DNA of 32,212 nucleotides from Kangiellaceae bacterium (GTDB taxonomy: Bacteria > Pseudomonadota > Gammaproteobacteria > Enterobacterales > Kangiellaceae), in NCBI GenBank assembly GCA_030590405.1, contig JAUUYO010000002.1:1-32212 (forward strand), given 5' to 3'. Position numbers and translations under genes: made by a program. The first letter of the stretch is position 1. Every line of letters starts with the position of its first letter. This document shows, piece by piece, positions 4,019 to 9,211 of this stretch. The notes under the pieces are model-generated. The model saw only the letters and a list, made by a program, of their open reading frames with translations. It was not told the origin of the DNA and ran no database searches.

Positions 4019-5365
4019 TTACTGAGCTTTCACTTCGACGGATACTGTTTGCGATTCACCTGAACTAAAGATCAATGTAAGGTCAACCTTGTCTCCCTGA
4101 ACCAAATCCTTTTTTGGTGATATCATCATCAAATGCTTACCACCGGGAGCGAGCTTTACTTGATCATTAACCGGAATGGTTAGAGTTTTAAGCTCTCGCA
4201 TATTCATTAATCCATCAACCACGGCCATTTCATGGACCTCAACTTTGTTAAAAGAATCACTTTTTATTCTAATTAAAGTAACCTCTTCTGAGCCAACGTT
4301 AATCAGTGTCATATAACCTGCATTTGCCTCAGAATCTGGCAAAGCCTCACGCACCCAGACATTCATAACGGCAACAACATCTGCACTCGGTTTAGTTTTG
4401 ACAGACCCTAAAACAGACATATTTTTACGACTAAAGATTTTCTCCGATGGACCTTCAGTTATTCTTTTAGTTTCTTGTTGAATATATTCAACAAGATCGT
4501 CAGCTTCCTGGCGATTCAAACGCATATTCGGCATGGCTAAGCTATCATATTGTTTAAATAGGGCCATGGCAATAGGATCTTTGTCTGTTAACATTTGATC
4601 GGGCGCACGAAGCCAGTTAAGCAACCAACTCATTTCTCGTCTTTTGCTCACACCTAGTAGATCTGGGCCTAGCGCATTAGGCAACTCTTTTCCTGTTATC
4701 GTGTGGCAAATATCACAGCGAGTACGGAACAATTGTTCTCCAGCAGTGATATTACGTAATTCAGGCGCAGTTTCATAGCCTTTACCTTTAGGGGCGGCTT
4801 TCCAACCAGTTAGCCAGTTACCGACCTGGTCTGCTAATACGTAGGGGTTTTCAAACGGTGAACGTTTCATCCAACGTCCTGTTTTTTGGTTACCGATGAT
4901 CATACTCACATTGTGGTTATTTGATCCATCTTGTATTTCTTCAATATATAAGCCGAGCTTTTTTCTTATCTCAATGATTTCTTCATTTTTTCCAGTTAAG
5001 AAAGTCCACTTTGCTCCAAATTTTTCGCGGTATTTCTTTAGCTTCGCGGGTGTATCGGTTTTGGGATCAACAGTAATAGAATAAAAGAAGACATCTTTAC
5101 CTAGTCGATCACCGAGTATATCTTGTACTTTTTTTAGTTGAGCAGTTTCTAATGGACATGAGTCTGGGCAGGTTGTATAAATAAAATTAAAAACGACAAT
5201 CTTATCTTTAACTAAATCGTCAAAAAAACGAACTTCTTTGCCTTCATGTGTCGTTAATTTAAAATTAGGGAAATAATCGGCTCCCCAGCGAGAACTAGAA
5301 CTAAAAGCATTGGTACTGAACAGTATGGTTAAAGCGATGGTCGCTATCCATTGGTATTTACGCAT
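4019..5365 (-). CDS. SCO1/SenC - cytochrome c - PCuAC (copper chaperone) three-domain fusion
   Basis: SCO1 motif FNFIYTTCPDSCPLE (CxxxC) and His in NNHNVSMI. Heme site RCDICHT (CxxCH) with candidate Met in LAMPNMRL. PCuAC motif VEVHEMAVVDGLMNMREL...GGKHLMMI. The supplied ORF starts at 5437, but MRKYQWIATIALTILFSTNAFS at 5365 is a signal peptide, and the upstream extension overlaps a terminator hairpin. Confidence 0.9.
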   Translation of the reverse strand: MRKYQWIATIALTILFSTNAFSSSSRWGADYFPNFKLTTHEGKEVRFFDDLVKDKIVVFNFIYTTCPDSCPLETAQLKKVQDILGDRLGKDVFFYSITVDPKTDTPAKLKKYREKFGAKWTFLTGKNEEIIEIRKKLGLYIEEIQDGSNNHNVSMIIGNQKTGRWMKRSPFENPYVLADQVGNWLTGWKAAPKGKGYETAPELRNITAGEQLFRTRCDICHTITGKELPNALGPDLLGVSKRREMSWLLNWLRAPDQMLTDKDPIAMALFKQYDSLAMPNMRLNRQEADDLVEYIQQETKRITEGPSEKIFSRKNMSVLGSVKTKPSADVVAVMNVWVREALPDSEANAGYMTLINVGSEEVTLIRIKSDSFNKVEVHEMAVVDGLMNMRELKTLTIPVNDQVKLAPGGKHLMMISPKKDLVQGDKVDLTLIFSSGESQTVSVEVKAQ

Positions 5366-5395
5366 AATACTTCTCACAATCAAAATGCTAAAAAT

Positions 5396-5430
5396 CAAAA
5401 AACCGCAGTGAGGAGGAAATCTCACTGCGG
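5396..5430 (-). terminator. Rho-independent terminator between the multicopper oxidase and SCO1-fusion genes
   Basis: Perfect 10-bp stem CCGCAGTGAG/CTCACTGCGG (5403-5412 / 5421-5430), 8-nt loop, followed on the minus strand by TTTTTTG. Confidence 0.85.
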
Positions 5431-5470
5431 AAGTCACCTAACTTACTTTTTTATTATCATTACCAGCTAA

Positions 5471-8400
5471 TTAAAATTTGCCAGCATTTCGTGCCGTATG
5501 GATCAACGTATCAACTGTCATAGGTGTAGGACAATTAACAACATGTGGCGAGTTGGGATTTTCAAAATCATAGTTATCTGTACCTATTTGAGGAGGTGCA
5601 GGGAATTCTACAATTTCAATCTTACCTTCTGATCTAAGCTGTTTCAACTGCTCAAGCCCTTTTACAACTCCGACACTGTCTGTCGCTGGAATTAACCAGT
5701 GAGCAAAACCGATGTGCCACATAGGACTGTAGTCATCTTCAGGCATAAAGTAGGAGGGAACACCAACCTGACTACCGAAAGGTCCACCACCTAGAACACC
5801 ATTACCATCTGAAGGCATTGGAGGATAGCTTGGACGGATTGGCGCTGGCGGCATAAACTGAACTAGTGGTACTGCAGCTTCGCCTAAGAACGCATGCTTA
5901 GGTACATAAGGTACACCCATTGCTCTTGAAGGACCAAAAGGGAATGTATCCACAACCACGTAATATGGCAAGTAATCTCCTCCATCAGTCCAGGATTTAT
6001 GTAATTTAAGTGATATCGTTGGAGTAGCGCTATCAGTATCGAGTGCAACTACGTGACCAGACTCATGTAAACCACCCCAAACATTACCGTTATACATACA
6101 AGTTGTATTAGCTGGCAAATCCGGGAAGCTAACGCAAGACTCATCGATTCGGTTATGCTCCCAAGGCTGATCGCCCCATTGGAAAATAATCGCATTGAAA
6201 ATAACGTCTGTTCCACCATAGTTCACACGACGAAGTGGTGAGTAAGTGCTGTTGTCGTTAACATCAGGAATGGCATCTGGGTTTTCACAAGCAACTCCAT
6301 TAGAGGTTCCATCAGAAACGCGACATGGAGGGTTAGCCCATACAGGATTAGGTAGATCGCCATAGAAAGTCCAATGACCACTTTCTGATACAGATGCTTC
6401 AGCAGTTGCTGCAACCGGTGTATTAGTTAACTTGCCAGCCCATGAAAGACCTAATTCGTCAGCTAACTCTTGATCGCTCACATCATGTAATACAAAGAGA
6501 ACTTCCGTCGCATTTCCGTTAGCATCAATATTAGTTCCCTTAGTTAATGGATAAGTAATCACTCCACGCTCATTGTCAGGTTCTGGATCAGACAAAGCAT
6601 CACCAAGCGGCGTATCTTTCAGATTATCAAGCTCAGTGACAACCGCGCCTCTCACCCAGATATCAACAGGCTCTAAAATTGGACCATATTGACCAACATC
6701 ATCACCAGTTCTCGCAGTAGGCAGTGCAACACTATCAACATAGCTGACACCATCCCACGTAGGAATAGGAGTAGGCATTAACTTGGTTTGACCAGGATTT
6801 TCAATATCCCAACGCAATAACATCGCGTGATCTTCATGCTGAGTATTATGGCAATGTTCCATATAGGTTCCAGCAAACTCTCTGAAACGTAAGGCAATTT
6901 CAACAATCGCGCCACTATCAGGTTGTGGTCCAATACGGTAAACATCTTTACGAGCCCATTGTTCCCACTCAGGTGGAGCAACGCCATTTCTACGAAGAAT
7001 AATACCTTCTTCAAAATGGATATGAACTGGATGACTCCACGTTCCACTATTGATCAAACGCCATACTTCCAGGCCACCATTTTTGGTTGGAGCCGCAGAA
7101 AGTCGACGAGGATCCATACCAACACCTTTTCCACCATCAGTTTCAATGACCCATGGCTTCTCATCAGTAGGCTGTCTTTCAAACTCAAAACTACGATGTA
7201 AAGCACCAGCCAGCTCTTCTTCAGTTGGACGCTGAATTGGGATCATCTTCTTCTTGCCAACAACATAATCGGCAGGATCCATACTCTCGTCTTTGCCTTT
7301 ATATTTTTTGACGCGAAACTCAAGGAATTTACCAACAACCGGATCGCCATCTAACCAACGATCAGTCTGACCATCTCCATCATCATCCACAGCAGTTGGA
7401 GAATAAGTACCATTTAGCACATCTTCCAATGAAACAACTTTATCAGTTACTTGGCCGGACTTATGTTGCATCAAGTTAACAAAGTAAAGTTTATCGCCAT
7501 CTTTGAAATTACTGAAATCAACAATAATGTCATAACGCTCTGCGATTGCGTGGGTCGGCAATTCACCGTTTTCAAAATAAACAGTGTGCTCCATGATGTT
7601 TCCATCATTGGCAACCATATGGAAAGGCACACGATCACCCGCTTCATTGACTAGAACGTTTTTGAAATAGCGAGAAACTGAACCATTCAAAATACGGAAA
7701 CGATAACGACGTGCACGAACCTCAAGGTAAGGGTCATACAACCAGTTAACCGTCATCACATCACCAATAAAACCTTTGATGTTGAAAGGGTTAAACCATA
7801 GTTGACCATCACGATCCCATGCTTTATCGGCTAATACCAGGTTAACGTCATAATCACGATTTCCCCAATCTTTAGCGCTACCGCTGGGCAGACGTAAGTT
7901 AACCCCATCATCCAGCTTTTCATTACCTCGATCAAGTGCACTGTAGTAGTTCATCATTGCCGCGTTGCCTTTATAGACATTTTGCGCGGTAAAATCGAGC
8001 ATATGATCATGGAACCAATGGGTACTCATGGTTTCATGCCAGTCACCAGGAAGCTTTTTAATTCCGCCTTTTCCGTCAGGCGCACCAGCACGCATATCTT
8101 GAGCTACAGTGTTGATAGAATCACTACCTGCAAGTGTCATCGGCCAACGATAATCATAAAACTGACCAGGGAAGAAGAACGCATTGGCATAACCATCACT
8201 TTCAGCAGGGTTGTGACCATTATGTTCATGAGTAGAAATGGTATGTACGCCAAATCCTTGATTGGCAGAAACATCAATTGGTAGCGCATTATAATGACGC
8301 ATCACCAAAGGCTCGCCGTACTTAGCTTTTAGTAGTTTTGGCGGTAAAGTACCATCAAATGTCCATAAAGTTTTTGGATCCTGTATTGGCATATTAGGAT

Positions 8401-9211
8401 GGAACTTGATATTAATACCACTGGTAGTCCCTTCAAATCCAGGAGCACCTACAGTATTGTGGTATAAACCATTTTTACCGAATTCACCATATCGGTATTT
8501 GAGATCTTGCTTTTTATCACGGAAACCACCGTTTTCACGAGCTCCAGACATTGCTGTTTGAAAGTAGTGCTTAGGCCTAAAATCATCCCAGCGCTGATGT
8601 GACCAGCCAATTCCAGGTGGACGACCTTCTGCAGGTGGAGTATCCAATGCACGCCCTAAATAGTCTTCTATTTCAGGTTTCCATGGGTTTTCAAAGTCAG
8701 TATTTGAAAACTTCATTGGTGCAGGCCAGATATCTTGGGATAAGAAATCTTCTAACATAACGCCATCAGGCACTTCGTCAGCATTTGCTGGCGCAGGCAT
8801 TGACACCCAGTTTTTTGGTTCTTTAGCATGCTTTTTTAACCTGTCCATGCCAAATTCTTCAAAACGTAACATCTGTTGCGAGAACTTAGTCGCGTTATAC
8901 AGAGGACTAGGAGTACCGTTTGTAGGTACATTAAAAACACCATTGGTGCGCTGATCAGCAGCCTGAAGTACGTTAGCTGAATGTGTATCTTCAACACTTT
9001 CAGTTTCACCGCCTTCAAAGGTTCCGGCATTTGCTTCAAAATGATCGTCAGGAACATCGCCAAAAATAGGCCCGGTTGGTAAGGATGGATCGTCTCCAGC
9101 CGTCTCAGCCGCTACGCTAATCGACACACAGAGTGTCGCACACAGCACAGCTTTAGAGATATGCGAAAGTCGCCACCCCTGGGTTTTAGGAATTTTTCTT
9201 TGAAATATCAT
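5471..9211 (-). CDS. Very large secreted multicopper oxidase (1246 aa), candidate metal (Mn?) oxidase
   Basis: Copper-site motifs THEHNGH, HWFHDHM, HPVHIHFEEG and HCHNTQHEDHAM. Sec-type signal peptide (ISKAVLCATLCVSISVAAE). Ribosome-binding site AGAGG upstream of ATG. About 400 residues follow the last copper motif. Confidence 0.9.
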   Translation of the reverse strand: MIFQRKIPKTQGWRLSHISKAVLCATLCVSISVAAETAGDDPSLPTGPIFGDVPDDHFEANAGTFEGGETESVEDTHSANVLQAADQRTNGVFNVPTNGTPSPLYNATKFSQQMLRFEEFGMDRLKKHAKEPKNWVSMPAPANADEVPDGVMLEDFLSQDIWPAPMKFSNTDFENPWKPEIEDYLGRALDTPPAEGRPPGIGWSHQRWDDFRPKHYFQTAMSGARENGGFRDKKQDLKYRYGEFGKNGLYHNTVGAPGFEGTTSGINIKFHPNMPIQDPKTLWTFDGTLPPKLLKAKYGEPLVMRHYNALPIDVSANQGFGVHTISTHEHNGHNPAESDGYANAFFFPGQFYDYRWPMTLAGSDSINTVAQDMRAGAPDGKGGIKKLPGDWHETMSTHWFHDHMLDFTAQNVYKGNAAMMNYYSALDRGNEKLDDGVNLRLPSGSAKDWGNRDYDVNLVLADKAWDRDGQLWFNPFNIKGFIGDVMTVNWLYDPYLEVRARRYRFRILNGSVSRYFKNVLVNEAGDRVPFHMVANDGNIMEHTVYFENGELPTHAIAERYDIIVDFSNFKDGDKLYFVNLMQHKSGQVTDKVVSLEDVLNGTYSPTAVDDDGDGQTDRWLDGDPVVGKFLEFRVKKYKGKDESMDPADYVVGKKKMIPIQRPTEEELAGALHRSFEFERQPTDEKPWVIETDGGKGVGMDPRRLSAAPTKNGGLEVWRLINSGTWSHPVHIHFEEGIILRRNGVAPPEWEQWARKDVYRIGPQPDSGAIVEIALRFREFAGTYMEHCHNTQHEDHAMLLRWDIENPGQTKLMPTPIPTWDGVSYVDSVALPTARTGDDVGQYGPILEPVDIWVRGAVVTELDNLKDTPLGDALSDPEPDNERGVITYPLTKGTNIDANGNATEVLFVLHDVSDQELADELGLSWAGKLTNTPVAATAEASVSESGHWTFYGDLPNPVWANPPCRVSDGTSNGVACENPDAIPDVNDNSTYSPLRRVNYGGTDVIFNAIIFQWGDQPWEHNRIDESCVSFPDLPANTTCMYNGNVWGGLHESGHVVALDTDSATPTISLKLHKSWTDGGDYLPYYVVVDTFPFGPSRAMGVPYVPKHAFLGEAAVPLVQFMPPAPIRPSYPPMPSDGNGVLGGGPFGSQVGVPSYFMPEDDYSPMWHIGFAHWLIPATDSVGVVKGLEQLKQLRSEGKIEIVEFPAPPQIGTDNYDFENPNSPHVVNCPTPMTVDTLIHTARNAGKF

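Follow-up and report, generated by a model that had tools for sequence, protein, structure and literature searches.

In a bacterium of the Kangiellaceae, a single gene joins a Sco domain, a mono-heme cytochrome c domain and a PCuAC domain, and this triple fusion goes with a multicopper oxidase (MCO) gene, not with cox genes. The fusion protein is probably a dedicated periplasmic, heme-equipped copper chaperone, or metallation factor, for the oxidase encoded directly upstream, which we assign to the McoA type.

The triple fusion and its gene neighbours

The window, i.e. the whole stretch of 32,212 nucleotides that was analysed (contig JAUUYO010000002.1), holds a three-gene unit, all on the minus strand, with the following features:

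5471..9211, minus strand: multicopper oxidase, 1246 aa, directly upstream of the triple fusion
6782..8410, minus strand: cupredoxin core of the MCO, about residues 268-810, Cu-oxidase_2 (Pfam)
5684..6508, minus strand: DUF7482, C-terminal domain of the MCO, residues 902-1176, Pfam PF24298
5403..5430, minus strand: hairpin resembling a terminator, with a 10-bp stem followed by T6, between MCO and triple fusion
4019..5365, minus strand: Sco-cytochrome c-PCuAC triple fusion gene, ATG 5365 to stop 4019, 448 aa
4907..5266, minus strand: Sco domain of the fusion, residues 34-153, Pfam SCO1-SenC PF02630
4475..4747, minus strand: mono-heme cytochrome c domain, residues 207-297, Pfam Cytochrom_C PF00034, CDICH at 217-221
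4043..4369, minus strand: PCuAC domain, residues 333-441, Pfam PF04314
2732..3973, minus strand: cyclophilin (PPIase)-DsbA (CGHC) fusion, 413 aa, Pfam Pro_isomerase and DSBA, third gene of the unit

An earlier note on this DNA had described SCO1, cytochrome c and PCuAC domains in one polypeptide at 4019-5365, with the key ligands intact. The coordinates are correct, the gene lying on the minus strand; Pfam matches were obtained to all three domains, and the Sco, heme and PCuAC ligand sets are all present. The plus-strand reading of the same interval contains stops throughout and was rejected. The open reading frame itself spans 4019-5437, its mechanical start being an upstream GTG at 5437, and the ATG at 5365 is the likeliest start. 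Read by eye from this ATG, the protein begins with a predicted Sec signal peptide, MRKYQWIATIALTILFSTNAFS, whose hydrophobic stretch is not followed by a lipobox cysteine, the first cysteine being C66.

The Sco domain matches SCO1-SenC with an E-value of 1.2e-25 (90.5 bits against a cut-off of 22.8), and its copper ligands C66 and C70 (CxxxC) and H151 are invariant in 35 aligned homologues. The match to Cytochrom_C (E 3e-7) lies above the curated cut-off, and the heme ligands C217xxC220H221 and the axial M278 are equally invariant in the 35 sequences. The best PDB match of this heme domain is 2l4d, the cytochrome c domain of Pseudomonas putida PP_3183 (E 1.4e-33), and the fusion aligns with the P. 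putida Sco-cytochrome c homologue across both domains. The PCuAC domain is matched with an E-value of 1.6e-31 (108.9 bits against a cut-off of 29.4), and its ligands, H378-X10-M389-X21-H411-X-M413 (with HLM), reproduce exactly the X10 and X21 spacing of the published copper motif, H(M)X10MX21HXM (PMC9145763). Of 23 triple fusions, 22 have all these ligands; the remaining copy, labelled Verrucomicrobiales, is degenerate. An AlphaFold2 model gave three confident domains connected by linkers of low confidence, with a pTM of 0.44 at which the arrangement of the domains is not interpretable; a Foldseek search with this model matched PCuAC, Sco and 2l4d structures.

The upstream MCO is probably Sec-exported. 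Its core has PDB matches to bilirubin oxidase and CotA, and its type 1 and trinuclear copper ligands, carried by the four motifs HEHNGH (328), HWFHDH (398), HPVHIH (727) and HCHNTQH (786), are invariant in 28 aligned sequences. The type-1 cysteine, C787, is the sole cysteine of the mature catalytic part. Further cysteines, C1026, C1038 and, just after DUF7482, C1227, are invariant among 20 DUF7482-bearing MCO sequences, a conservation from which disulfides could be surmised. DUF7482 was modelled by AlphaFold2 with a pLDDT of 74.6 and a pTM of 0.78, and this model matched no fold in the PDB. The C-terminal appendage varies within the MCO family: it is a di-haem CCP_MauG domain in L095 (2316-6773), Big_9/cadherin-like in L093 (4458-7853) and DUF7482 in the window (5684-6508). 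Two Colwellia MCOs (L078, 4063-7869, and L081, 4042-7866) start with an apparent lipoprotein signal, a hydrophobic stretch and then GCG, whereas the window protein has a Sec signal; the lipoprotein-like start suggests that the Colwellia enzyme is anchored.

The genes of the unit are closely spaced, with 33 nt between the MCO and the fusion reading frame, or 105 nt when counted to its ATG, and 45 nt between the fusion and the cyclophilin-DsbA gene, whose product has an N-terminal hydrophobic anchor. The hairpin, read from 5430 to 5403, would fall in the leader of the fusion gene if translation starts at ATG 5365, and it may set the level of the chaperone below that of the oxidase. An Rfam search of the window gave no match. 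Different hairpins were seen in the same gap of eight relatives of the DUF7482 clade (L062, L067, L073, L074, L075, L081, L083 and L086).

Four other genomes of the genus have the MCO, the triple fusion and the cyclophilin-DsbA gene in the same order, with different outer neighbours (in one of them the contig begins inside the MCO). The cyclophilin-DsbA gene is also syntenic in the public loci L062, L063, L065, L067, L068, L073 and L083, the last titled Nitrospirales, and in G201, a genome of another family, the MCO and the triple fusion are found without the rest of the unit. No plasmid relatives of the unit were found at the megablast level. The host has its COX1-family genes on other contigs than the fusion, a separate PCuAC gene on another contig, and a separate canonical Sco gene, also on another contig, adjoining what appear by eye to be heme a and heme o synthase genes.

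Linkage of the fusion to the multicopper oxidase

The gene had been said to lie beside an MCO gene and not among cox genes, and this is borne out by the wider sampling. Among 369 genomes of the class, the MCO core occurs at 63-100% identity in five (G000, G201, G306, G154 and G088), and these same five are the genomes with the Sco-cytochrome c fusion, which adjoins the MCO in each. The chance of this exact overlap is about 2e-11 when the genomes are taken as independent (1 over 369-choose-5, by hand calculation). In seven further genomes of the class, with more distant MCOs (38-45%), a Sco match lies close to the MCO by its coordinates, and two genomes of the phylum sample that have 39-45% identical Sco-cytochrome c homologues also have an MCO immediately upstream.

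A public scan of 84,980 species genomes yielded 80 loci, and 71 of them, from several phyla, have an MCO homologue directly upstream in the same orientation, a proportion that describes the Sco-cytochrome c family, from which the search patterns were taken, and not Sco proteins generally. The exceptions are two contig ends (L080 and L108) and seven Pseudomonas loci without an adjacent MCO. No COX1/CcoN (oxidase subunit-I) motif was found in the 1.15 Mb of these 80 loci, the host's own cox loci serving as positive control, and a cox association of the fusion found no support. Only the COX1/CcoN motifs were used as evidence for cox genes because a CuA regular expression missed the host's own COX2. 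Within these family-biased loci the architecture is not common beside cox operons. In Comamonadaceae and Fuscovulum plasmids, the deposited annotation gives an MCO gene and then an 'SCO family protein' gene with CxxCH, and genes annotated as 'hypothetical' in Paraburkholderia have the MCO and heme motifs. On a plasmid of Halomonas HAL1, a heme-less PCuAC-Sco pair adjoins a cytochrome c oxidase assembly gene. Taken together, the samples support an association with the MCO, not with cox genes.

The complete triple architecture was found in five further genomes and in 22 of the 80 public loci, some genomes being common to both sets. The conservation of architecture and synteny across many genomes rules out a chance fusion or an assembly artefact; this recurrence is far beyond chance. 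In these 22 loci, two of which come from one Myxococcales genome, PCuAC is in the same reading frame as Sco-cytochrome c; their titles name Gammaproteobacteria of several families, Kiloniellaceae, Myxococcota/Myxococcales and Verrucomicrobiales, i.e. three phyla as taken from record titles, which may be wrong for metagenome-assembled genomes. Their MCOs carry DUF7482 in all cases where the sequence is present, and three other loci (L083, L085 and L086) combine a DUF7482 MCO with a Sco-cytochrome c fusion devoid of PCuAC. Since PCuAC is missing from most relatives, it must be dispensable for the basic pairing of MCO and Sco-cytochrome c. As to a single origin of the triple fusion, a clade of all fused proteins is rejected by the tree of Sco-cytochrome c (AU p 1.2e-5) but not by the tree of the PCuAC domain only (p 0.68). 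The distribution may reflect repeated gains, or else losses or transfer. Pseudomonas vranovensis and Pseudomonas BGr12 have an MCO, Sco-cytochrome c and then PCuAC as a separate gene, and in a weakly supported tree the separate Pseudomonas PCuAC was not placed with the fused PCuACs.

The assignment of the oxidase to the McoA type comes from Pseudomonas. The P. putida locus L093 encodes, in this order, an MCO, Sco-cytochrome c, a GGDEF/EAL protein, a phosphonate-binding protein and a phage integrase, exactly the five products listed for the putative mcoA operon of P. putida GB-1 (PMC11409713). The window MCO is about 53-56% identical to Pseudomonas MCOs with this operon, and we assigned it to the McoA type because the operon of its homologues in P. 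putida matches the mcoA operon gene by gene; the basis of this assignment is the arrangement of genes in related strains. McoA can oxidise Mn(II) in GB-1 (PMC11930936), and Mn(II) would by analogy be the substrate of the window enzyme. The Sco-cytochrome c protein of L093 has 2l4d (PP_3183) as its top PDB match (E 1.4e-57), with few differences in the alignment.

The seven Pseudomonas loci that keep Sco-cytochrome c without an adjacent MCO are L121, L123, L124, L129, L134, L136 and L141, and scars of the MCO are present in L134 and L136. In the four for which neighbours were listed (L121, L123, L129 and L136), the gene lies between histidine-kinase-like genes that are followed by a response regulator, with an mnxS1-like gene on one side and mnxS2/mnxR-like genes on the other; in L121 the two histidine kinases and the sigma-54 response regulator were checked with Pfam and resemble mnxS1/S2/R. 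In two further strains, the published mcoA-SCO pair is flanked by mnxS1 and mnxS2 (PMC11409713). The retention of Sco-cytochrome c without the MCO suggests that it may have a further client, MnxG for example, or act in regulation.

Proposed copper loading of the oxidase and competing explanations

We propose that the MCO would be exported unfolded, that the membrane-anchored cyclophilin-DsbA protein would help it to fold and that the triple fusion would load it with copper. The PCuAC domain would bind copper and pass it to the Sco domain, or cooperate with it, and the Sco domain would deliver it to the MCO. The Sco CxxxC could also hold C787 reduced, as this cysteine must stay reduced because it has to bind the type-1 copper. 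The heme c, for which we infer a redox role, would give or take single electrons and so keep Sco or its copper in a transferable state. A copper chaperone, a heme c protein and a PPIase recur beside Mn/Fe-related MCOs (mnxG, mofA and ompB clusters; also our loci L056 and L058), which supports a shared set of maturation functions that, by analogy, would be compressed into two fusions in the window.

The heme had also been suggested in the earlier note as an electron acceptor of the oxidase. This is unlikely, since the MCO keeps all the histidines of its trinuclear site and O2 is therefore its expected acceptor; a role as donor to Sco or to copper would be more plausible. The same evidence bears on the broader idea that the fusion is mainly an electron-transfer partner, its heme passing electrons among MCO, Sco and respiratory chain, with copper delivery of secondary importance. 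In its favour, the heme ligands are invariant in 35 of 35 homologues, a constancy that the PCuAC domain does not reach; mof and mnxG clusters repeatedly contain cytochrome c genes, MofC having been proposed to transfer electrons, and ccm genes have been implicated in Mn oxidation. However, with the O2-reducing copper site complete a cytochrome acceptor is not needed, and the copper ligands of Sco and PCuAC are kept too; we regard this explanation as unlikely.

It is still less probable that the locus is a copper detoxification or storage unit, with the MCO as a CueO-like cuprous oxidase and the fusion buffering periplasmic copper. The MCO does show similarity to CueO in NCBIfam, but weakly (94 bits against a cut-off of 525), and it greatly exceeds CueO in length, having additional domains at its C-terminus. 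Neither a copper ATPase nor a Cue/Cop regulator was recognised by eye among the reading frames of the window, and the Pseudomonas relatives match the neighbours of mnxS/mnxR and of the mcoA operon. Sco and PCuAC are, on the other hand, the classical assembly factors of CuA (PMC9145763, PMC7558416), and the fusion could in principle be a factor of cytochrome c oxidase that lies beside the MCO gene by happenstance. The genomic context largely refutes this, and we give it very little credence: subunit-I motifs are absent from the 80 loci, the fusion co-occurs perfectly with the MCO, and the host has Sco, PCuAC and COX1-family genes of its own elsewhere.

A copper-loading role of the Sco-cytochrome c factor fits two genetic observations, which other cytochromes could explain too: Mn oxidation by strain DSV-1 is lowered when Tn5 is inserted in a TlpA-like gene that lies between dsbD and dsbG, and Mn oxidation by P. 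putida MnB1 reportedly involves ccm genes. A bolder and more tentative proposal, possible although we lean against it, is that the single polypeptide would form a complete copper relay by itself, serving a manganese oxidase and uniting both classical copper chaperones with an electron supply of its own, the heme c. If this were true, Mn oxidation would require cytochrome c maturation genes because its chaperone needs a heme, which could explain why ccm and thiol-disulfide genes came up in pseudomonad Mn-oxidation screens, and a copper chaperone may itself be a c-type cytochrome. Little is understood of copper delivery that is dedicated to multicopper oxidases, Sco and PCuAC being usually described for cytochrome oxidase. 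The present family offers a clean, genetically linked case, with Sco, heme c and sometimes PCuAC beside a manganese-type oxidase, and it includes cultured Pseudomonas, in which these ideas are testable.

Comparison with known systems

The arrangement had been presented as unusual, and this has to be qualified. A Sco gene beside an MCO is a published pattern, in the mcoA and mnxG operons (PMC11409713) and in ompB/mofA clusters (PMC5566968), and the fusion of Sco to cytochrome c is known from PP_3183; it is the fused PCuAC that is unusual. We found no report of the triple fusion in open papers, which does not prove its absence from the literature.

The Sco and PCuAC proteins that serve the CuA centre of cytochrome c oxidase have the same two copper domains and ligand motifs as the window fusion, in which, by contrast, they are joined around a heme and go with an MCO, not with cox genes. 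In Rhodobacter capsulatus, the maturation of the MCO CutO needs the co-encoded cutF, a proposed copper chaperone (PMC8456105). An MCO with a co-encoded maturation factor is common to both cases; CutF differs by its description, which, in the passages of that account consulted here, is not that of a Sco, PCuAC or heme protein.

In the mcoA operon of GB-1, the SCO1/SenC gene is immediately downstream of the MCO (PMC11409713), as in the window, and all five genes are reproduced in L093. The GGDEF/EAL, phosphonate-binding and integrase genes that follow are, however, absent from the window, and the Pseudomonas MCOs of L093 and L088 end in Big_9/cadherin-like domains where the window MCO ends in DUF7482. 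The mnxG operon encodes MnxG, a beta-propeller protein, two Sco proteins, a cytochrome c protein and SurA, and mofABC an MCO, a PPIase and a cytochrome c. These clusters share with the window a copper chaperone, heme c and a PPIase beside a Mn/Fe-related MCO (PMC11409713, PMC8218464, PMC5566968), but as separate genes, whereas the window packs the functions into two fusions and adds PCuAC and DsbA. Among our loci, L056 and L058 appear by eye to be mnxG-like clusters, with a very long reading frame, a beta-propeller-like and a SurA-like protein, two Sco proteins and a heme c protein.

The closest known protein is PP_3183, annotated 'SCO1/SenC family protein/cytochrome c', which has Sco and then mono-heme cytochrome c in one chain, as does the window fusion. 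It differs in being without PCuAC, and no cyclophilin-DsbA gene follows its L093 homologue. The Sco-cytochrome c fusion is thus already known, and what look new in the window are the addition of PCuAC and the cyclophilin-DsbA partner.
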